31,656 nucleotides of DNA from a virus. The first letter of the stretch is position 1, and each line of letters opens with the position of its first letter. The stretch covers positions 1 to 31,656 of the IMG/VR virus record IMGVR_UViG_3300042507_005026, one strand, 5' to 3'. The notes beneath the pieces are model-generated. The model had not been told where the DNA came from, ran no database searches, and saw only the letters and a program-made list of their open reading frames with translations. The position numbers and the translations under genes were made by a program. Positions 2,495-28,647 of this stretch are shown here, in pieces.

Positions 2495-2537
2495 CCGGGC
2501 CGAGCAGGGTACACGCACGGGCAGCGACGAGGTGCCT

Positions 2538-3245
2538 GTGCGTGTGCTGGTCAGTGGTGGAGGTGGACGGCTGGGGCGGCTGCTCGTGCCGTGGCTACGC
2601 GAGCACGGGCACGAGGTACTGGCACCGACCCGCGCGGAGCTGGACTGGGCACGCCCGCTACAGGTAGCCTCCGCGCTCCACACACACGCACCAGACCGGG
2701 TGCTGGCGCTGGCGAGCTGGACGGACGTTGCCCGAGCACAGCACCAGCCCGGCGCGTGCGTGCGGGACACGGTGGTGACCGCCCAGCACGCCATCGACGC
2801 CGCTGCGTCAGCGCGCGTGCCGCTGCTGTACGTGAGCACCGACTACGTGCACGCTGTGCTGCGACAGGACGGCGCTGGCGTGTACGCAGCGGCGAAGCTG
2901 GTCGCCGAGCAGCTGGTGCTGCTCGCTGGCGGCTACGTGGCTCGCGTGGCGTTCACCACGCCCGAGCAGGTGGCTGGCTGGCAGTGGGCGAACGGCTACT
3001 CGCTTGCGAACCGCTGCTGGGTGGACGAGCTGGTGCCGATGCTCGGAACGTGGGCCTGCTACCCGGCGCACCAGCTGGAGCGGCTGGTGGAGCTGGGCGG
3101 CCCGCACCCGTGCACACCCGCTGACCTGCTGCGCCGCAGGCAGCCCGAGCACCCAGCACTCACGCGCATCGTGGCCTCTGCTGAAAGCGCCGTAGAGAGC
3201 GGGCTTCCGGTTCAGCCGCGCGACACGAGCTGGCGGCGACCGTAA
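2538..3245 (+). CDS. Short SDR, dTDP-4-dehydrorhamnose reductase (RmlD)-like
   Basis: This is an NAD(P)-binding extended short-chain dehydrogenase. The glycine motif SGGGGRLG lies at residues 6-13, STDYV at 100-104 is the usual active-site strand, and Y116-x-x-x-K120 is the catalytic pair. RmlD reduces dTDP-4-dehydrorhamnose in dTDP-rhamnose synthesis, and this fold also covers other 4-keto-sugar reductases. At 235 aa it is shorter than a typical RmlD (near 300 aa), mainly in the substrate domain. GTG at 2538 was preferred over GTG at 2532 because GAGG at 2529-2532 is correctly spaced. An RmlC-like cupin is encoded at 7743. RmlA and RmlB are not in the window, so the sugar substrate would come from the host. 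Confidence 0.7.
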   Translation: MRVLVSGGGGRLGRLLVPWLREHGHEVLAPTRAELDWARPLQVASALHTHAPDRVLALASWTDVARAQHQPGACVRDTVVTAQHAIDAAASARVPLLYVSTDYVHAVLRQDGAGVYAAAKLVAEQLVLLAGGYVARVAFTTPEQVAGWQWANGYSLANRCWVDELVPMLGTWACYPAHQLERLVELGGPHPCTPADLLRRRQPEHPALTRIVASAESAVESGLPVQPRDTSWRRP

Positions 3246-4457: not shown

Positions 4458-4501
4458 GGGCGGCGCGCTGGCCTCGGGCTGGCGCGCCGCCCTAACTTTT
4501 T
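4458..4501 (+). terminator. Probable intrinsic terminator between 3350 gene and MoxR gene
   Basis: A perfect 11-bp stem (4458-4468 with 4482-4492) around a 13-nt loop is followed by TAAC and five T (4497-4501). The same T run is the upstream box of cassette promoter P2, so terminator and promoter share bases. Confidence 0.65.
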
Positions 4502-4558
4502 CTCTCGCTTCTGCTTGCGCGTCTAACGGCTGCGCGGTTAGTGGAGACACGTCAGCAG
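4493..4558 (+). promoter_or_regulatory. Cassette promoter P2
   Basis: TAACTTTTTCT (4493-4503) is 11 bp upstream of TTGCGC (4515-4520), exactly as in P1. The dyad is TAACGG (4524-4529), 5 bp, CGGTTA (4535-4540). GTCAGCAG starts at 4551, 10 bp after the dyad. It precedes the MoxR ATPase gene. Confidence 0.75.
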
Positions 4559-4597
4559 GGCATCCCGCCCACCACCACCCGCAGGAGCAAGACCACA

Positions 4598-5740
4598 ATG
4601 ACCACCGCCGCTCTCGACCTCGCCACCGCCCGCGCGCAGCTCTCCACCCTCCGCACCCAGATGAAGGGCGCGTTCGTCGCCCGCGACGCCGAGATTGACG
4701 GGCTGCTGCTCGCGCTGCTGGCCCGCACGCACGTGCTCCTGCTCGGGCCTCCGGGCACCGCCAAGTCGCTGGTGACGCAGGTGTTCGCGGGCGCTCTCGG
4801 CGGCGACTACTTCCAGCGCCTGCTGACCGCGTTCACCGCGCCCGAGGAGCTGTTCGGCCCGTACGACCTCGCCGCGCTGGACGCGGGCCGCTACGAGCGC
4901 GCCGTGCAGGGCTACCTCCCGACCGCCACGGTCGCGTTCTGCGACGAGGTGTTCAAGGCGAACAGCGCCATCCTCAACAGCCTGCTCACGGTGCTCAACG
5001 AGCGCCAGTTCGACAACGGCACCGCACGCCTGCAGCTGCCGCTTGAGCTGTGCGTCGGCGCGAGCAACGAGTATCCGGAGGACGCCAGCTTGGAGGCGCT
5101 CTACGACCGCTTCACGCTGCGCTACTGGACCCAGTACGTGCCGACCCGCGCCGGGCGGCTCGCGCTGCTGACCGCCGCCGACCCGGCGAAGGCGGTGACC
5201 GCGAAGCTCGCGCCCGAGGCGGTGCAGGCGCTGCAGCAGGCGGTGCGCGACGTCGTGGTGCCGCAGGCGGTGCTGGAGCTGCTGTGCGACGTGGCCGACA
5301 AGCTGGCCAAGGACAACGGCATCACCGTGAGCGACCGCCGCCTGCGCGGGATGGTGCGGCTCCTGCAGGCGAGCGCCGCGCTGGACGGGCGCGACACGGC
5401 GACCGCCCGCGACCTGCTGGTGCTGGCCGACAGCGTGTGGCACCGCCACGAGCAGCGCCCTGCGGTGCTCGCCACGGTGATGGCCGTCGCCGCCCCGCAG
5501 CTCGCCGCTGCCACGAAGCTCGCCGACAGCGCCCGCGAGGTGTACGACGCGGTCAAGGACGTGCAGGGCGACGGCGCGCGCGCCCTGCAGCGCATCAAGG
5601 CTATCGAAGCCGAGCTGGCCGCCCTCGGGCTGGACGACGGCGACGTGGCCGCCTGCCACGCGCAGGTGACCGAGCTGCGGAAGGGGCTGGCCCGTCGGTT
5701 CATGGCCGCGAGCGGGCTGGGCGTCGGCCTCGCCGGGTAG
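4598..5740 (+). CDS. MoxR-type AAA+ ATPase
   Basis: The 380-aa protein shows a Walker A motif (GPPGTAKS, residues 50-57), Walker B (VAFCDE, 112-117), sensor-1 Asn in GASNEYP (N157) and the YDRF arginine (R171), followed by a helical lid. This is the MoxR/RavA/CbbQ class, which forms rings and usually works with a VWA partner to remodel or activate a target protein or insert a metal. The VWA protein is encoded next (5871). The ATG at 4598, with AGGAG 10 bp upstream, was chosen. A GTG at 4541 extends the frame but lies inside promoter P2. The 5' leader is very like that of the gene at 13061. The target in this phage is unknown. Confidence 0.9.
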   Translation: MTTAALDLATARAQLSTLRTQMKGAFVARDAEIDGLLLALLARTHVLLLGPPGTAKSLVTQVFAGALGGDYFQRLLTAFTAPEELFGPYDLAALDAGRYERAVQGYLPTATVAFCDEVFKANSAILNSLLTVLNERQFDNGTARLQLPLELCVGASNEYPEDASLEALYDRFTLRYWTQYVPTRAGRLALLTAADPAKAVTAKLAPEAVQALQQAVRDVVVPQAVLELLCDVADKLAKDNGITVSDRRLRGMVRLLQASAALDGRDTATARDLLVLADSVWHRHEQRPAVLATVMAVAAPQLAAATKLADSAREVYDAVKDVQGDGARALQRIKAIEAELAALGLDDGDVAACHAQVTELRKGLARRFMAASGLGVGLAG

Positions 5741-5760
5741 CCGCTCGGCGGTGCGCCGCC

Positions 5761-5801
5761 GCGCGCCTGCGCCAGTCGGTGCGGGCGCGCGTGCTTTTTT
5801 T
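5761..5801 (+). terminator. Intrinsic terminator after MoxR gene
   Basis: A 13-bp stem (5761-5773 with 5778-5790, two G-U pairs in RNA) with a 4-nt loop is followed by GTGC and seven T (5795-5801). The T run merges into the upstream box of promoter P3. Confidence 0.8.
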
Positions 5802-5862
5802 CTCACGGCGACCTTGCGCGAGTAACCGTGGCGCGGTTACCGGGTAACCGTCAGCAGCAAGG
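5795..5862 (+). promoter_or_regulatory. Cassette promoter P3, with extra palindrome
   Basis: A T run ending in TCT (to 5803) is 10 bp before TTGCGC (5814-5819). The dyad is TAACCG (5823-5828), 5 bp, CGGTTA (5834-5839). A second, overlapping 15-bp perfect palindrome GGTTACC-G-GGTAACC (5835-5849) adds another half-site. GTCAGCAG starts at 5850, and the AAGGAG of the VWA gene follows at once. Confidence 0.75.
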
Positions 5863-5870
5863 AGCATCCG

Positions 5871-7340
5871 ATGAGCGCAGCCTACACCACCGCCCGCCAC
5901 ACCGACGCCACCCGCGCCGTTTCGCGCTGGGCCGACTACCTGTTCACCACCCGCGAGGCCGCGAGCACCGCGCTGCGCGGCGCGCGCTACGAGCTGGGCA
6001 GCGCGTACCGCGCGCACGCCAAGAGCGCCGACGCCGCCGAGGCGCGCCGCATGGACGCGCTGGCCACCGCGACCGCGCGCGAGGTCTTCGCGGGCCTGTA
6101 CGACGCCGAGGAAGCCGCCGCGCTGGAGAAGCCCGCGCCCGACACCGAGCTGGTCGCCCGCGTCCACGCGCAGCTGCAGGGGCTGCCCGAGTACGCGCAG
6201 CTGCAGGCGCAGGTGGCGGGCGACCCCGACCTCGCCGCGCTGGCTGCCGCCCAGCTGCTGCGCGGCGTTGCGGGCGCGCTCCCGCAGGTCGCGGAGCAGG
6301 AGCGCCAGCAGGCCCAGCAGTCCGCGCAGGGGCGCGCCCAGCGCGGCCCGGCTGCCGACCCCGACGGCGCGATGCGCCGCGCCCTGCGCGCGGCCTGTGG
6401 CGATGCCGCGCAGGCCGCCGCCGAGGCCGCTGACGGGATGGAGGGTCTGGCTCCCGGCCTCGGCGGCACGCCCGCCCAGCACGAGCAGGACGGCACCGCG
6501 CGCATGGCGCTGGCCGAGCGCGTGAGCAGCGATGCCCGCCTGCGCCGCGTGATGAAGCTGGCTGGCCGCCTGCGCCGCCTCGCCAGCGACGGGCGCAAGG
6601 TGCGCGACGAGCTGGGCGCGGACACGCTCGTGGGCACCACCATCGGCGGCGACCTGCCGCGCGCCCTGCCCACCGAGCTGGGCCTGCTGCGCCACCCGCG
6701 CCTGCGCCGCGTGCAGCTCGCCAAGCTCGCTGACCGTCGGCTCCAGCAGTACCACGTCGTCGGGCAGGTTCCGAAGGGTCGCGGCCCGGTGGTCGTGCTG
6801 CTGGACGAGAGCGGTTCGATGGAGGGCGAGCGCAACCTGTGGGCTGCTGCGGTGGCGCTCGCCTGTCTCGGCACCGCCGCCCGCGAGCGCCGCGCCTGCA
6901 CGGTCATCGGGTTCAACGGCGCGGTGCGCTACGTCGTGCGGCTGGACGCGCAGGGGCGCGCGTGGCGGCACGAGCCGCGCAACGTGGCGCAGTCCACGGC
7001 GATGGGCGGCTGCGCCGAGGTGGCCCTGCACGTGGCCAGCAGCCGCCCCGATGGCGGCACCCAGTTCGCGCCGCCGCTGCTGGCCGCGCTGGAGCTGGAG
7101 GACGGCGTGACCCGCGAGCGCGCCGACCTCGTGCTGGTGACCGACGGCCACGCCGAGGCACCCACCAGCGTGATGGAGCGCCTGCAGGCCGCCAAGCGCG
7201 ACGGGCTGCGCGTGTTCGGTCTGACGGTCGGAGGCGGGAGCCTCGGTCACGCGGTGCAGCAGCTCGCCGACCACTGCGTGGACCTCGACGCCGCCAGCGG
7301 GCGCGACGACGGCAAGGAGGTGGCGGGTGCCATCCCGTAG
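5871..7340 (+). CDS. VWA-domain (MIDAS) protein, partner of MoxR ATPase
   Basis: The 489-aa protein has a helical, Ala/Gln-rich N-terminal two thirds and a C-terminal von Willebrand A domain from about residue 300. All MIDAS elements are present: D312-x-S314-x-S316 (DESGSM), T397 in GGTQF and D425 in VTDGHA. These bind a divalent metal and form a protein-docking site. The combination of MoxR ATPase and VWA protein with a long helical N-terminus resembles CobS/CobT-like pairs. AAGGAG lies 6 bp before the ATG. The next small gene overlaps its end by 14 bp, so the two are translationally coupled. Substrate and role in infection are unknown. Confidence 0.88.
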   Translation: MSAAYTTARHTDATRAVSRWADYLFTTREAASTALRGARYELGSAYRAHAKSADAAEARRMDALATATAREVFAGLYDAEEAAALEKPAPDTELVARVHAQLQGLPEYAQLQAQVAGDPDLAALAAAQLLRGVAGALPQVAEQERQQAQQSAQGRAQRGPAADPDGAMRRALRAACGDAAQAAAEAADGMEGLAPGLGGTPAQHEQDGTARMALAERVSSDARLRRVMKLAGRLRRLASDGRKVRDELGADTLVGTTIGGDLPRALPTELGLLRHPRLRRVQLAKLADRRLQQYHVVGQVPKGRGPVVVLLDESGSMEGERNLWAAAVALACLGTAARERRACTVIGFNGAVRYVVRLDAQGRAWRHEPRNVAQSTAMGGCAEVALHVASSRPDGGTQFAPPLLAALELEDGVTRERADLVLVTDGHAEAPTSVMERLQAAKRDGLRVFGLTVGGGSLGHAVQQLADHCVDLDAASGRDDGKEVAGAIP

Positions 7341-7746
7341 CGGGCGCGGCCCGGTGCCGCAGCATCCCGTGGCGGTCACCGCACAGGTGCTGGCCGCCTG
7401 TGCCCGGCTGGAGGCGCTGGCGGGCTGGTGGCCGCCTGCGGGCGGGCTGGTGGAGGGCGCGCGCCTCGCGCTGGCTGGAGAGGGCGGGCTGGACGCCGCC
7501 CAGCTCCAGCGGCTGGTGCTGTGGTCGCGCCGCTGGGCGGCGCTGGACCCGCGCCTGCGCGAGCTGTACGCGCGCCACCCGGCACAGGGCGCGGTGGACG
7601 CCGCCCTGTGGCACGTGCTGGAGCAGCGCGACGGACAGGCCAGCGGCGCGGTGTACGGCACCCTGCGCGACCTGTGGACGCGCCTGTACGGCTACGCGCC
7701 CAGCATCGAGCTTCTGCCCCGCATCACACTGGAGGACCACGCATGA
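7327..7746 (+). CDS. Small protein of unknown function, coupled to VWA gene
   Basis: The 139-aa product starts at GTG 7327, 6 bp after AAGGAGG (7314-7320), inside the end of the VWA gene. Its stop overlaps the ATG of the following cupin gene (ATGA). It looks helical and Ala/Leu/Trp-rich, with no metal or nucleotide motif and no membrane segment. Tight coupling on both sides makes it a real gene of the P3 transcript. It may be an accessory of the MoxR/VWA module, but only position supports this. Confidence 0.7.
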   Translation: MPSRSGRGPVPQHPVAVTAQVLAACARLEALAGWWPPAGGLVEGARLALAGEGGLDAAQLQRLVLWSRRWAALDPRLRELYARHPAQGAVDAALWHVLEQRDGQASGAVYGTLRDLWTRLYGYAPSIELLPRITLEDHA

Positions 7747-23486: not shown

Positions 23487-23770
23487 GCGCGCCGCTCCCC
23501 GAGCGCGCCACGGTGCTGGCGCTGCCGATGGACGACCCCGAGGCCAGCGTGCGCGGCAGCCCGGCGCTGGCAGCCCTGCTGGCCGAGGGCTGGCAGGTGG
23601 TGGCGAGCGTTCCCGCCGCCCGAGGCGACCGAACCGAGCTACTGCTGGTGCTCGCGCCGCCGCGCCCAGCGCCCGCGCTGCGCGTGCCGCGCGACCTGTA
23701 CCTGCTGGCCGCACTGGCCTGCGCCGCCTGCGGTGCGCTCGGCGCGCTGCTCACAATCATCACCCGCTGA
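23483..23770 (+). CDS. Small protein with C-terminal TM segment
   Basis: The 95-aa protein starts at GTG 23483 overlapping the previous stop (GTGA). The first 65 residues look like a soluble beta-alpha unit, followed by a Pro/Arg stretch and a single C-terminal hydrophobic helix (about 72-94, LYLLAALACAACGALGALLTIIT). That fits a tail-anchored membrane protein. No family was recognised. Confidence 0.55.
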   Translation: MSAPLPERATVLALPMDDPEASVRGSPALAALLAEGWQVVASVPAARGDRTELLLVLAPPRPAPALRVPRDLYLLAALACAACGALGALLTIITR

Positions 23771-23783
23771 ACTGGAGCAATCC

Positions 23784-24500
23784 GTGCCCACCGCTGAACT
23801 GAACCTCTCCACCGTGGCACTGGCCGACCTACGCCCCGACCCGGCCAACCCTCGCACGCACGACGCGCGCAACCTCGCCGCCATCGCCGCAAGCCTCCGC
23901 GAGCACGGACAGGTGGAGCCACTGCTGGTACAGCAGTCCACGATGATGGTCATCGGCGGCAACGGGCGCGCCGAGGCCATGCGCTCGCTGGGATGGAAGC
24001 AGGCCCGCGTGGCGCTGCTCGACGTCAGCGACACCGAGGCCCGCAAGCTCTCCATCGCGCTGAACCGCACGGGCGAGCTGGCTGGCTGGGACGAGGCAGT
24101 GCTGGCTCGCCACCTGTCCGAGCTGTCCGAGCTGGACGGCGCGTTCGATGTGGAGGGTCTGGGCTTCACGGGTGCTGAACTGGACGCGCTGGTGGCGGCC
24201 TACGTCGCGGTGGAGCCGACGCCGCCGCCCGTAGCCCCGCAGCCGACGGCACAGGGAACCGCCAGCGGTGTGACCGCTGGTGCGGGTGCTGGTGTGTCCA
24301 TCGGAGGGGCGTTGCCGCCCGGCACCGCGCCTGCGCCCATGCCGACCAGCGCGGTCAAGGTCGTCCAGCTGTTCCTCAACGACGAAACCATGGACCCGTT
24401 TCAGATGGCTGTCCGCAAGCTGGCAGAGCAGTACGGAACGGACAATATCACCGACACCGTGCTGCGCGCGGTGCTCACCGAGGCTGGCGAATGGCGCTGA
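23784..24500 (+). CDS. ParB/Srx-like domain protein
   Basis: The 238-aa protein starts at GTG 23784, 6 bp after GGAG. Residues 8-115 form a ParB-N/sulfiredoxin-like domain: VALADLRPDPANPRTHD, a helix with SLREHGQVEPLLVQ and the GGNGRAEAM motif (58-66), then LNRTGELAGWDEAVLARHLSEL. In phages such domains are found in DNA-modification and nuclease proteins as well as partition proteins. After a Pro/Gly/Ala linker (143-195) comes a short helical C-terminal domain. There is no helix-turn-helix typical of full ParB. queE overlaps its end by 10 bp, which ties it to the deazaguanine genes; a DNA-targeting or NTP-binding role there is inferred. Confidence 0.75.
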   Translation: MPTAELNLSTVALADLRPDPANPRTHDARNLAAIAASLREHGQVEPLLVQQSTMMVIGGNGRAEAMRSLGWKQARVALLDVSDTEARKLSIALNRTGELAGWDEAVLARHLSELSELDGAFDVEGLGFTGAELDALVAAYVAVEPTPPPVAPQPTAQGTASGVTAGAGAGVSIGGALPPGTAPAPMPTSAVKVVQLFLNDETMDPFQMAVRKLAEQYGTDNITDTVLRAVLTEAGEWR

Positions 24501-25153
24501 ACGTCCGCGAGGTGTTCGCCACCATGCAAGGCGAGGGCAGCATGGCGGGTGCGCCTGCTGTGTTCGTGCGGCTGTCGGGATGCAACCTGTGGAGCGGGCT
24601 GGCCCACCTGCGCCACGCAGGCACCGGAGCCTGTGCCGAGTGGTGTGACACCGACTTCGCAAAGGGTACACGCTACGAGCCGGGCGAGGTCGCGGACACC
24701 GTGCTGCGACTGTGCGACGGTTGGGCACGTCCATTCGTGGTCGTGTCCGGAGGCGAACCATGCCTCCAGCTCCGCACAGCAGGCGGCGAGGTGCTGGTGC
24801 GCTTGCTCCAGCAGGCAGGCGTGGCCGTGGCCGTAGAAACCAACGGGACAGTCGAGGCCGATGTGCTTGCCGACTTGCAGCACGTGACGGTCAGCCCCAA
24901 GGCACTACGCGCACCCGGCGAGGACGCACTGGCGCACGTTCGCGTTCGCACTGGCACCGACCTCAAAGTCGTTGCCCCGCAGTGGGGGCATGACGAGCTG
25001 GACCGCATGAACGAGTGGGCGTTCACCCACCGTTACGTCCAGCCGCTGGACACCGGAACTGGTCCCGGCGCGGTGCAGCCCGCGCTGGCGCTGGCGGCGC
25101 GCCTTGGCTGGCGCGTGTCGGCGCAGGTTCACAAGCTGCTGGAGCTACCATGA
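24491..25153 (+). CDS. queE: QueE, 7-carboxy-7-deazaguanine synthase (radical SAM)
   Basis: The 220-aa protein turns 6-carboxytetrahydropterin into 7-carboxy-7-deazaguanine, the ring-contracting step of preQ0 synthesis. Family features seen: FATMQGEGSMAGAPAVFVRLSGCNLW at the start (shown in part), CDTDF after the cluster, GGEP at 86-89 and ETNG at 115-118. The cluster cysteines are C31, C48 and C52, a CX16CX3C spacing. The X3 between the last two is unusual, since a CX2C end is the common form. The ATG lies inside the ParB-like gene, with GAGG upstream, and its stop overlaps folE (ATGA). Identity is clear; activity with this spacing is the only doubt. Confidence 0.92.
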   Translation: MALNVREVFATMQGEGSMAGAPAVFVRLSGCNLWSGLAHLRHAGTGACAEWCDTDFAKGTRYEPGEVADTVLRLCDGWARPFVVVSGGEPCLQLRTAGGEVLVRLLQQAGVAVAVETNGTVEADVLADLQHVTVSPKALRAPGEDALAHVRVRTGTDLKVVAPQWGHDELDRMNEWAFTHRYVQPLDTGTGPGAVQPALALAARLGWRVSAQVHKLLELP

Positions 25154-25746
25154 CAACGGATAAGGCAGCCGCCGCCGAGGCGGTGCGGGCGCTCCTCGCG
25201 GCGCTTGGCGAGGACACGGAGCGCGAGGGGCTACACGGCACGCCCGCACGGGTGGCCAAGGCGTGGCTTGAAATGCTCGCCGGGATGCACCTGCAGCCCG
25301 CCGATGTGCTGCGTACCAGTACGGGCGGCGCTGGGTTCTCCGACGTCGGTGGGTTCGACCAGATGGTCGTGCTGTCCGACATCCCGTTCCACAGCGTGTG
25401 CGAACACCACATGCTGCCGTTCAGCGGGTTCGCGGACGTTGGCTACCTGCCGGGCGACAGCGGGTTGGTGGTGGGCGTGAGCAAGCTCGCGCGCCTCGTG
25501 GACCTGTACGCGCGCCGCCTGCAGGTGCAGGAGCGCATGACGCAGCAGGTAGCACAGGCGCTCCACGACCACCTACAGGCGCGCGGCGTCGGTGTGCGGG
25601 TGCGTGGCGTCCACCACTGCATGAGCTGCCGTGGCGTCCGCAAGTCGGGCACGATGGCGACCGAGGTTCTGTTAGGCGCGTTCCGTGACCATGCGGTACG
25701 CGCCGAGTTCTGGCAGCTGTGTGAGCCGCTGCCGAGGGGGGCATGA
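25150..25746 (+). CDS. folE: FolE, GTP cyclohydrolase I
   Basis: The 198-aa protein makes dihydroneopterin triphosphate from GTP, the first step of the pathway. HSVCEHHMLPF (81-91) supplies zinc ligands C84 and H87, and HHCMSCRGV (155-163) supplies the third Cys and nearby catalytic residues. GLHGTPARVAKAW and SKLARLVDLYARRLQVQERMT are family signatures (the second shown in part). Length is normal for type IA enzymes. Start and stop both overlap neighbours (ATGA with queE, ATGA with queD), so the four que genes are made in step. Confidence 0.95.
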   Translation: MTTDKAAAAEAVRALLAALGEDTEREGLHGTPARVAKAWLEMLAGMHLQPADVLRTSTGGAGFSDVGGFDQMVVLSDIPFHSVCEHHMLPFSGFADVGYLPGDSGLVVGVSKLARLVDLYARRLQVQERMTQQVAQALHDHLQARGVGVRVRGVHHCMSCRGVRKSGTMATEVLLGAFRDHAVRAEFWQLCEPLPRGA

Positions 25747-26177
25747 TGGACACGACCGCGACCCGCATCTTCGGGATTGACGTTGGGCACCGGGTGATGC
25801 GCCACGAGAGCAAGTGCGCGCACGTGCACGGCCACCGCTACGGCATCGAGGTGACCTGCGCGGCACCCGCGTTGGATACCGTGGGGCGTGTGATTGACTT
25901 TGGCGTGGTCAAGGAGGTGGTCGGCAGCTGGCTGGACGACAACCTCGACCACGGCTACGCGCACCACCCCGACGACCCGGTGGGCGCGTACCTGCTGGCA
26001 CAGGGACAGCGCACGTTCGCCATGCCCGCCCAGTACGGTGAGCCAACAGCCGAGAACATCGCCCGGCTGGTTGGACACACCGCAGGCGAGCTGCTGGCTC
26101 CACACGGCATCACGGTCACGCACGTTCGCGTGTACGAAACGCCCAACTGCTGGGCAGACTGGCGTAAGGAGGTCTGA
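25743..26177 (+). CDS. queD: QueD, 6-carboxytetrahydropterin synthase
   Basis: The 144-aa protein converts dihydroneopterin triphosphate to 6-carboxytetrahydropterin. Zinc ligands H16, H29 and H31 and catalytic C25 are seen in GHRVMRHESKCAHVHGH; IDFG (51-54), the D69-H70 pair in LDHGY, E104 in PTAEN and E132 in YETPN complete the active site. Start is ATG 25743, or ATG 25746, both overlapping the folE stop, with GAGGGG upstream. Its stop overlaps queC (TGATG). Confidence 0.94.
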   Translation: MMDTTATRIFGIDVGHRVMRHESKCAHVHGHRYGIEVTCAAPALDTVGRVIDFGVVKEVVGSWLDDNLDHGYAHHPDDPVGAYLLAQGQRTFAMPAQYGEPTAENIARLVGHTAGELLAPHGITVTHVRVYETPNCWADWRKEV

Positions 26178-26890
26178 TGTCACAGCTGAACGGAAAGACG
26201 GTGGTGCTGCTGCTCTCGGGTGGGCAGGACAGCACGACCTGCCTGTTCTGGGCGCTCGCCAACGGAGCCAGCAAGGTCCACGCGCTGTCGGTGTGGTACG
26301 GGCAACGGCATGACGCGGAGCTGCGTGCTGCGTCGGCGGTGTTGGCCGTCGCCCGCGAGCACTACCCCGAGGCCGAGCTGCACCACGAGCAACTGGCCAT
26401 TGGCAACGTGCTGTCCAGCACCAGCCCGCTGGTGAGCAGCGCGCCGCTGGGCCAGTACGCCAGCGCCGAGGAACTGCCGGGCGGCGTGGAGCCGACGTTC
26501 GTGCCGGGTCGCAATCTCCTGTTCCTCACGCTGGCAGCGAACCGCGCAGCGGCGGTGCGCGCCGACGCGCTCGTGACAGGCGTGTGCGAGGAGGACTTCG
26601 GAGGGTACTACGACTGCAGGCGCGCGTTCGTGGACGCGACCGAGCGTGCTGTGGCGCAGGGGTTCGTTGGGTCAGACGAGTGGCTGCCCATTCTGACGCC
26701 GCTGATGAAGCTGGACAAGGCGGCCAGCGTGCGCTTGGCAGTGGAGCTGCCCGGCTGCATGGACGCGCTGGCGGTGAGCCACACCTGCTACGCAGGCGAG
26801 AACCCGCCCTGCGGCAAGTGTCACGCCTGCCACCTGCGGCAGCGTGGCTTCGCGCAGGCAGGCGTGGCCGACCCTCTCGTTGGGCGGTGA
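26177..26890 (+). CDS. queC: QueC, 7-cyano-7-deazaguanine (preQ0) synthase
   Basis: The 237-aa protein makes preQ0 from 7-carboxy-7-deazaguanine with ATP and ammonia. It has the PP-loop SGGQDS (14-19) and the C-terminal zinc site C204, C212, C215, C218 (CYAGENPPCGKCHAC). AAGGAGG stands 4 bp before the ATG, the strongest ribosome site in the que run. No QueF is present, so the expected end product is preQ0, with the QueC intermediate ADG as the alternative. The first DpdA-like gene begins 3 bp after its stop. Confidence 0.95.
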   Translation: MSQLNGKTVVLLLSGGQDSTTCLFWALANGASKVHALSVWYGQRHDAELRAASAVLAVAREHYPEAELHHEQLAIGNVLSSTSPLVSSAPLGQYASAEELPGGVEPTFVPGRNLLFLTLAANRAAAVRADALVTGVCEEDFGGYYDCRRAFVDATERAVAQGFVGSDEWLPILTPLMKLDKAASVRLAVELPGCMDALAVSHTCYAGENPPCGKCHACHLRQRGFAQAGVADPLVGR

Positions 26891-26893
26891 CCG

Positions 26894-27754
26894 ATGTTCA
26901 AGGCAGCAACGCTGGTGTCGTACCACGGGATGCGCGAGCAAGGGTTCGATGCTTGGTGGAGGCTGCAGGGCGCGTACCCCGACATAGAGGTGGTGCTGGA
27001 CAGTGGAGCGTTCAGCGCCGCCAACACGGGCGTGCCCATCGGCGTGCTGGAGTACGGCAGATTCGTGCGCCAGTACGGCGGTCGGTTCAAGTGGTGCGCC
27101 AACCTCGACGTGATTGGCGACCCGCAGGCCAGCTACAGACAGTGGCGGGCGCTCCAAGACCTGTCCGGAGGCCAGCTTGTGCCTGTCCTCCACTACGGTT
27201 CTGACCACCGTTGGATTGAACGCTACGCCAGCGACGGCGCTCCGCGCATGGCGTTTGGCGGCCTCGTGCCCCACATGGCCAAGCTGGCGCACGCCCGGCC
27301 CGACTGCCCTGTGACCAAGTGGGTGAGTGGCGCGTGGGAGGTTGCCAAGCAGGCTGGGTTGGTCGTCCACGGGTTCGGCGTGGCCAGTCCACGCATCATC
27401 GCCGCCTACCCGTGGGAGAGCTGCGACAGCAGCTCGGCGCACCACTACGCGCGCCGACGACAGAACTGGATACTCGACAGCAACGGCAAGCGCGTGCGGC
27501 TGGACAGCCAAACGGGCGGCCTGTCCGCTGACGAACTGAACATGATGGACAGGTTCGAGGTTCAGTACGTGGAGGGAGTTCACGGCAAGTACGGGATGGC
27601 GCGCGGCAAGCGGCTGACCTCGGTGGCTACGTCCATGCTCCAGTCGGTGGAGCTGGTCGGCTACCCAAGCGGGTTCGTGATGATGTTCGCGCTGCCCAAC
27701 GCGGCTGAACGGCACGTACTGTTCGACGTGAGCCGGGCTTGGAACGCCCGATGA
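26894..27754 (+). CDS. dpdA: DpdA-like DNA 7-deazaguanine transglycosylase, copy A
   Basis: The 286-aa protein has the tRNA-guanine-transglycosylase-type TIM barrel pattern of phage DpdA enzymes, which exchange guanine in DNA for a 7-deazaguanine base. LDSGAF (35-40, D36) matches the general-acid Asp motif, LDVIGD is at 71-76, and HGFGVASP (159-166) followed by YPWESCDSS carries D178, which aligns with the nucleophile Asp. No CXCXXC zinc motif is seen, unlike tRNA TGT. The start is 3 bp after queC with only a weak ribosome site, suggesting coupled translation. A paralogue follows with ATGA overlap. Family assignment rests on motif order and on the que genes beside it. Confidence 0.85.
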   Translation: MFKAATLVSYHGMREQGFDAWWRLQGAYPDIEVVLDSGAFSAANTGVPIGVLEYGRFVRQYGGRFKWCANLDVIGDPQASYRQWRALQDLSGGQLVPVLHYGSDHRWIERYASDGAPRMAFGGLVPHMAKLAHARPDCPVTKWVSGAWEVAKQAGLVVHGFGVASPRIIAAYPWESCDSSSAHHYARRRQNWILDSNGKRVRLDSQTGGLSADELNMMDRFEVQYVEGVHGKYGMARGKRLTSVATSMLQSVELVGYPSGFVMMFALPNAAERHVLFDVSRAWNAR

Positions 27755-28647
27755 ACGTGGGATGGCTGACGAGTTACTGGCACGTTCGTACCGACCCAGT
27801 GGACTGGCAGAAGACGCTGGAGCTGACGCGCCACGGCGTGAGTGTCGTTGTGGACAGCGGAGCGTTCACAGCCAAGTCGCTGGGTACACCCATCAGCCTG
27901 CTGGCCTACCAGCGGTGGCTCCAGCCCCGCCTGCGCTCGGTGAACGGTTGGGCGGCATCGCTCGACGTCATTGGTGACCACAGCGGCACCATGGCTAACT
28001 ACCGGGCCATGGCGTCTGCGGGCTGTGTTGGTGTGGTTCCCACCGTTCACTTCGGAGCGCCAGCCGACTACGTGGACGTCTACGCCGACCTCGGGGCGCA
28101 ACGCATCGCGGTGGGCGGCATCGCTGGGATGATGGTGCGCGGTCGCCCGTGCCTTGACGACAGCCAAGCTGGACAGCTCACACGCTGGCTGACCGCTGTT
28201 CACGGTAGGTTGGAGGCCCGTGGCATCAAGTCACATGGGTTCGGCGTGAACGCCCCGCAGTGGGCGAAGGCGTACCCGTGGGATTCGGTGGACGGCACCA
28301 GCTTCGCGTCGGGCGCGAGGTATCGCAACCTGCCCATCTACCGCAACGGAAAGATGACATGGCGGCAGCTGCGCGACGTGACCGACGAGGAGGCGACCTA
28401 CCTCGCAAGCATTGGTGGCGACGTGTCTCGGATGAACGACGCTTTCGTGACTGTGAAGGGGCAGGGCCAGCGACAGTGGCGCACGCTGATTGAGCTTGGG
28501 ATGGTCGCGGTGGTCCAATCCCTGCTGGAGCAAGCGCCGCACATTCGCACCCTCTACGTCAGCGAGTGGAGCATGACCGACCTCGTGCGCGGCATCATCC
28601 TCGACTGGAGCGACAACGGCTACCCGTGGCTGCGTGCGCGCGGGTAG
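27751..28647 (+). CDS. dpdA: DpdA-like DNA 7-deazaguanine transglycosylase, copy B
   Basis: The 298-aa protein is a diverged paralogue of copy A. VDSGAF (34-39, D35), LDVIGD (71-76), VHFG around H100 and SHGFGVNAP with YPWDSVD (D181) line up with D36, LDVIGD, H100 and D178 of copy A. Both putative catalytic Asp are kept, so it is not an obviously dead copy. The C-terminal third differs most, with a longer helical part after residue 190. ATG 27751 overlaps the stop of copy A (ATGA), so the two are made at a fixed ratio, as expected for a heterodimer or for two enzymes with different sequence targets. Confidence 0.83.
   Translation: MNVGWLTSYWHVRTDPVDWQKTLELTRHGVSVVVDSGAFTAKSLGTPISLLAYQRWLQPRLRSVNGWAASLDVIGDHSGTMANYRAMASAGCVGVVPTVHFGAPADYVDVYADLGAQRIAVGGIAGMMVRGRPCLDDSQAGQLTRWLTAVHGRLEARGIKSHGFGVNAPQWAKAYPWDSVDGTSFASGARYRNLPIYRNGKMTWRQLRDVTDEEATYLASIGGDVSRMNDAFVTVKGQGQRQWRTLIELGMVAVVQSLLEQAPHIRTLYVSEWSMTDLVRGIILDWSDNGYPWLRARG

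Follow-up and report, generated by a model that had tools for sequence, protein, structure and literature searches.

Why does one virus carry two putative DNA-guanine transglycosylases of the DpdA type, encoded in tandem behind the genes for preQ0 synthesis? The question is raised by the IMG/VR virus record IMGVR_UViG_3300042507_005026 (31,656 bases, 71.6% G+C), the whole of which was analysed and is called the window below. An earlier note on this DNA had described the two genes, here DpdA-A and DpdA-B (A and B), and had suggested that they form a fixed-ratio heterodimer as in eukaryotic TGT, that they have two sequence specificities, or that they place two different 7-deazaguanine bases in one genome.

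The enzymes and the pathway as such are already known, and a two-DpdA version is present in GenBank for Microbacterium phage Megan without comment. DpdA3 and DpdA4 are later-described subfamilies from phages and archaeal viruses, and a 2023 paper reportedly defined the later subfamilies. We have found no published discussion of the two-DpdA version; the later-subfamily DpdA paper lay outside the search, and a prior mention is possible.

The window and its operon

The gene scan of the window finds replication genes and a serine-integrase-like gene, and no structural gene is recognised among the scanned genes of these 31.7 kb. The window is therefore probably a phage fragment. Its primase has distant relatives only. 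The operon runs on one strand in the order ParB-like, QueE, FolE, QueD, QueC, DpdA-A and DpdA-B (Table 1), and the preQ0 pathway upstream of the DpdA pair is complete, as the earlier note had read it, with QueE, FolE, QueD and QueC all detected. The cluster corresponds to the preQ0-type gene set, group 2 of PMC6884629 (DpdA, FolE, QueD, QueE and QueC), and no amidotransferase is seen in the window, which is an incomplete contig. In phages Rosebush and CAjan, a complete preQ0 pathway with no visible amidotransferase yields dPreQ0 (PMC6884629).

The iron-sulfur cysteine spacing of QueE is unusual, the window protein having Cx16Cx3C and the QueE of the relative L011 (1675-2538) Cx14Cx3C, while the common forms are Cx3Cx2C or Cx14Cx2C. 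Elsewhere in the window, a MoxR-type ATPase gene and the gene that follows it are possibly a phage MoxR-and-partner system, and an epimerase-like gene is also present (Table 1).

Table 1. Coordinates of the features discussed, in window numbering.
Feature	Position	Strand	Basis
NAD-dependent epimerase/RmlD-like gene	2532-3245		E 6e-17
MoxR-type AAA ATPase	4541-5740		bpMoxR, E 4e-59
489-aa protein, function unassigned	5871-7340		phrog_24053
ParB-like protein; may be a DpdA partner akin to DpdB	23733-24500	+	PF02195 E 1.6e-7; best match the ParB-like gene behind L011's second DpdA (45% identity)
QueE (radical SAM CDG synthase-like)	24491-25153	+	TIGR04508 E 8.6e-43, below cutoff; PHROG 2076; cysteine motif Cx16Cx3C
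FolE (GTP cyclohydrolase I)	25150-25746	+	PF01227 E 7.9e-61
QueD (6-carboxytetrahydropterin synthase-like)	25743-26177	+	PF01242 E 1.1e-28
QueC (preQ0 synthase), 237 aa, without Gat fusion	26177-26890	+	PF06508 E 4.2e-52; TIGR00364 above cutoff
DpdA-A, predicted DpdA1-type DNA-guanine transglycosylase, 286 aa; D36, D72, H100, H159, D178	26894-27754	+	ORF; PHROG 887 E 2.8e-35; AF2 model; catalytic columns invariant
ATGA start/stop overlap of A and B	27751-27754	+	sequence
DpdA-B, predicted second DpdA1-type DNA-guanine transglycosylase, 298 aa; D35, D72, H100, H162, D181	27751-28647	+	ORF; PHROG 887 E 5.4e-23; AF2 model; catalytic columns invariant

The two DpdA genes

The two genes lie head to tail, and coordinates and overlap agree with the earlier description. 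B starts at the ATG inside the ATGA overlap, and the third-position G+C bias is strong in both reading frames (0.84 in A, 0.82 in B). Both proteins match PHROG 887/7068 (queuine tRNA-ribosyltransferase) with E values from 1e-19 to 1e-35. The alignment of A with B covers 200 aa at 35% identity (E 4e-29), and past about residue 200 the similarity is no longer significant. The motifs reported previously are exact, namely D36/D178 in A and D35/D181 in B, LDVIGD at 71-76 and H100 in both, and HGFGV at 159 and 162, respectively. The strong C-terminal difference emphasised in the earlier note is real, the last third being 14% identical, but it carries no extra weight: single DpdAs of equal core identity differ as much in this part (13 +/- 5% identity, 2343 comparisons), so such divergence characterises the family as a whole.

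Active site and family assignment

In TGT chemistry, one Asp forms the covalent intermediate and a second Asp acts as the general base. D36, D72, H159 and D178 (A numbering) are invariant across 152 aligned family members, including both copies of every pair, and they align with D72, D114, H196 and D215 of the 9g DpdA; the His196 equivalent is present in both window proteins, as H159 in A and H162 in B. On the basis of these invariant residues and the retained histidine, A and B both look active and both appear to be of the DpdA1 type, with the full D/D/H/D set in each copy, as the earlier note had supposed for the Asp pair. DpdA2 (nt-1-like) proteins are marked by the absence of a His196 equivalent (PMC6884629), and membership of A or B in that subfamily was rejected on this residue.

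The AlphaFold2 models are of high confidence, with pLDDT values of 84.6 (A) and 88.4 (B). In BFVD both match proteins of Arthrobacter phage Sonali and gp2 and gp3 of Megan, and more weakly a protein of the DpdA2 phage nt-1; the TM-scores against the phage queuine TRT/DpdA models (Sonali, Megan) are 0.51-0.78. The two proteins are thus predicted to resemble the same phage transglycosylases, and neither models as a different fold. A PDB fold search with A gave generic barrels only, with low TM scores. A sequence profile built from 54 relatives was more informative: it hits the DNA-guanine transglycosylase of the bacterial Dpd cluster (DpdA, PDB 7ui4) at E 2.9e-5 with the catalytic D/H/D positions aligned; the window proteins, at 286-298 aa, are much shorter than this 436-aa enzyme.

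Assignment to the tRNA-guanine transglycosylases was considered and rejected. The TGT zinc site, CxCxxC-H, is in neither protein, the only cysteines being 68, 138 and 177 in A and 92 and 134 in B, and neither has a Pfam TGT match. Among the proteins tested, the PADLOC models gave no match to DpdA or DpdB.

Doublets in other phages

The two-DpdA arrangement is not unique to the window. DpdA is detected in some 220-248 records of named phages, and of these only those of Megan (two accessions) and Nicole72 hold two copies, which bears out the statement in the earlier note that known phages mostly use one. The genes in question (Megan gp2/gp3, Nicole72 gp2/gp4) are annotated as queuine tRNA-ribosyltransferases or hypothetical proteins. 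Like those of the window, they lie head to tail near ParB-like, QueC, QueD, QueE and FolE genes and keep the active-site residues, and in Megan they share the ATGA overlap. Unlike those of the window, they stand before rather than after QueC, a small ORF separates them in Nicole72, and the copies (46% identical) are closest to each other, which makes them an independent duplication. The DpdA1 systems of 9g, CAjan and Rosebush have in common with the window the Asp pair, the His196 equivalent, the FolE/QueD/QueE/QueC genes and a predicted dPreQ0 (Hutinet et al. 2019, PMC6884629). They differ in that a second DpdA is not described for them, and 9g in addition has an amidotransferase step to G+ (PMC6884629).

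Relatives collected from IMG/VR, genomes and named phages were clustered at 90% identity into 136 clusters. Two DpdA reading frames occur in 15 of them, and in 13, representing about 11 lineages, once L066, whose first copy is incomplete, and L103, where a single gene has been split, are left out. The corresponding doublet rate of about 10% is a biased estimate, since relatives entered the sample through their similarity to the query sequences. IMG/VR scans with A or B singly gave no close relatives and no near-identical pair.

We then have to ask whether all pairs go back to one duplication. The copies are sisters in L030, L039, L148 and L094, the larger trees unite those of Megan and Nicole72 with good support, and L114 and L011 combine distant DpdAs. 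An origin of all pairs from a single A/B duplication was rejected, the tree that separates first from second copies having a log-likelihood 759 lower (p-AU 7.7e-10). With the single ancient duplication rejected and sister copies in several lineages, the sequences indicate that doubling took place repeatedly, on at least about six occasions, and that both active sites were retained. The dN/dS ratios between close relatives, for first and second copy, are 0.12/0.44, 0.28/0.25 and 0.13/0.07, pointing to purifying selection on both; the ratios within pairs are saturated or unreliable and were not used.

A divergent DpdA subgroup is formed by L114 (4667-6865), L152, L132, L113 and L180 (SH-aLRT 100). 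In copy B of L114, which adjoins an ordinary DpdA, Thr replaces His at the H100 position, as in 12 sequences of the alignment.

The nearest relatives

The nearest relatives of the whole cluster are L011 and L012 (IMG/VR contigs 3300009128_001330 and 3300013118_000532), which provide the best matches of all five other cluster genes of the window: ParB 45%, QueE 51%, FolE 69%, QueD 54% and QueC 62% identity. They too have two DpdAs, and the one after QueC is the relative of A. In contrast to the window, QueC separates the two DpdAs, and downstream of each comes a ParB-like gene of its own. The trees place A together with L011's second DpdA and the singletons L018 and L022 (SH-aLRT 96), and B adjoins that group (87-93). 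The topology tests reject neither a sister relation of A and B nor a grouping of B with the remaining DpdA of L011 (p-AU 0.27 and 0.35). The nearest relative thus retains two enzymes but not their adjacency, which is easier to reconcile with two working units than with a complex that depends on coupled translation.

L018 and L022 have a single DpdA on the sequenced stretch. In these two and in L019, the fetched stretch holds a DpdA without preQ0 genes, so such phages would need host preQ0; the adjoining gene looks by eye like a DNA methyltransferase.

ParB-like genes

ParB-like genes lie within the fetched flanks of 71 of the 136 DpdA clusters, as found with a profile built in this analysis, and BLAST places one directly upstream on the same strand in 39. 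Frequently the ParB-like gene immediately precedes its DpdA and overlaps it. In L011 they follow each DpdA, at 4494-5261 and 6747-7520, the first being found by our profile and not by Pfam. L039 contains a duplicated DpdA-ParB module, with ParB-like genes at 5563-5871 and 6679-7266, the first of them short. The window has one ParB-like gene for its two DpdAs. That each DpdA has its own ParB-like gene in L011 and L039 suggests that DpdA and ParB form a working unit. Moreover, the separate DpdAs of L011 with their own ParB neighbours, together with the L039 module, fit two independent working units better than one obligate complex. A link between such ParB-like proteins and bacterial DpdB, a protein of the ParB superfamily, was proposed earlier for mycobacteriophage CRB2 (PMC6392294).

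Why two enzymes

We now turn to the explanation of the pair. The best one, to which we give about an even chance on the sequence evidence, is that A and B, as diverged but active DpdA1 enzymes, each insert preQ0, most likely at different subsets of guanines, and so block more host restriction sites than one enzyme could. FolE, QueD, QueE and QueC would convert GTP to preQ0. By analogy with TGT chemistry and with other family members, such as that of CAjan, whose modification is lost without dpdA (PMC6884629), we infer that A and B would each remove guanine from the phage DNA through a covalent Asp-enzyme intermediate, as in TGT, and put preQ0 in its place. The ParB-like protein may be the DNA-loading partner of the DpdAs, like bacterial DpdB. 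A division of labour by sequence context is something that we only infer; different target contexts fit best with the divergence of the copies, the retention of both active sites and the recurrence of the doubling. It is important to point out that a second enzyme is unnecessary for a second motif. CAjan modifies two motifs, GA and GGC (PMC10002423), and has one annotated DpdA. The single ParB-like gene of the window, set against two DpdAs, also counts against the explanation.

The next candidate, possible but in our judgement doubtful, is that A and B are an obligate or preferred heteromer, a paralogous descendant of a TGT-like homodimer in which both subunits bind DNA and one or both active sites are used. 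TGT enzymes are dimeric, and in eukaryotes the two subunits, QTRT1 and QTRT2, are paralogous transglycosylases that form a heterodimer. The tandem, overlapping genes agree with this, the copies of Megan, L036, L053 and L148/L125 likewise overlap by four bases, and most pairs are adjacent and probably co-expressed, so that a heteromer also fits. However, 4-base overlaps are routine in the window operon, occurring also at QueE/FolE and FolE/QueD, and the overlap of A and B is therefore no argument by itself for a fixed-ratio complex. This proposal of the earlier note is further weakened by L011, its QueC standing between the DpdAs, and by L094, where other genes likewise separate the pair, while L018 and L022, the closest to A besides L011, show one DpdA. 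The comparison with eukaryotic TGT also fails, because QTRT2 is non-catalytic whereas no copy of any pair has lost its active-site residues; in the window, moreover, neither copy has the zinc-site cysteines.

Returning to two active enzymes with different targets, we can compare them with another possibility, namely that two copies of one activity provide more transglycosylase during infection, through dosage or partial redundancy. The active-site residues kept in all duplicates and the repeated, independent tandem duplications would be in line with it. But pure dosage would need no divergence, and A and B, both of them intact, are only 35% identical; other pairs have likewise diverged (mostly 38-55% identity between copies). 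We therefore consider this unlikely.

Very unlikely, on the gene content seen, is the suggestion that the two enzymes insert two different 7-deazaguanines, say preQ0 by one and an intermediate, CDG for instance, by the other. Several deazaguanines do occur in other phages, and nt-1 DNA holds preQ0, ADG and G+, but these are ascribed to one promiscuous DpdA (PMC6884629). Among the scanned genes of the window, an incomplete contig, we find no QueF, ArcS, Gat or other base-tailoring enzyme, and QueC lacks a Gat fusion. Least probable of all is another substrate or role for one copy (tRNA, or a non-catalytic helper), in favour of which nothing specific speaks beyond the PHROG and GenBank names, which read queuine tRNA-ribosyltransferase, while both copies keep the D/H/D positions of the profile match to 7ui4 and lack zinc-site cysteines.

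Significance

On a broader level, we advance tentatively the view that in phages the replacement of guanine by preQ0 has repeatedly come to be divided between two active paralogues of DpdA, each perhaps assisted by a ParB-like protein for specificity or loading. Such sets would resemble those of DNA methyltransferases, as modular writers that place deazaguanine in a sequence-specific way.

Natural DpdA doublets that have arisen repeatedly and appear to keep both active sites are ready-made comparisons for the choice of guanine, which is little understood in phage DpdA. If the site preferences of the copies differ, the residues that set sequence choice could be located, and DpdA could be used as a site-selective DNA writer. 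A relative of the L011 type, with two separate DpdA-ParB units, is a test case for the ParB-like protein as a real part of the machinery. For the phages themselves, the doubling probably widens protection against host restriction enzymes.
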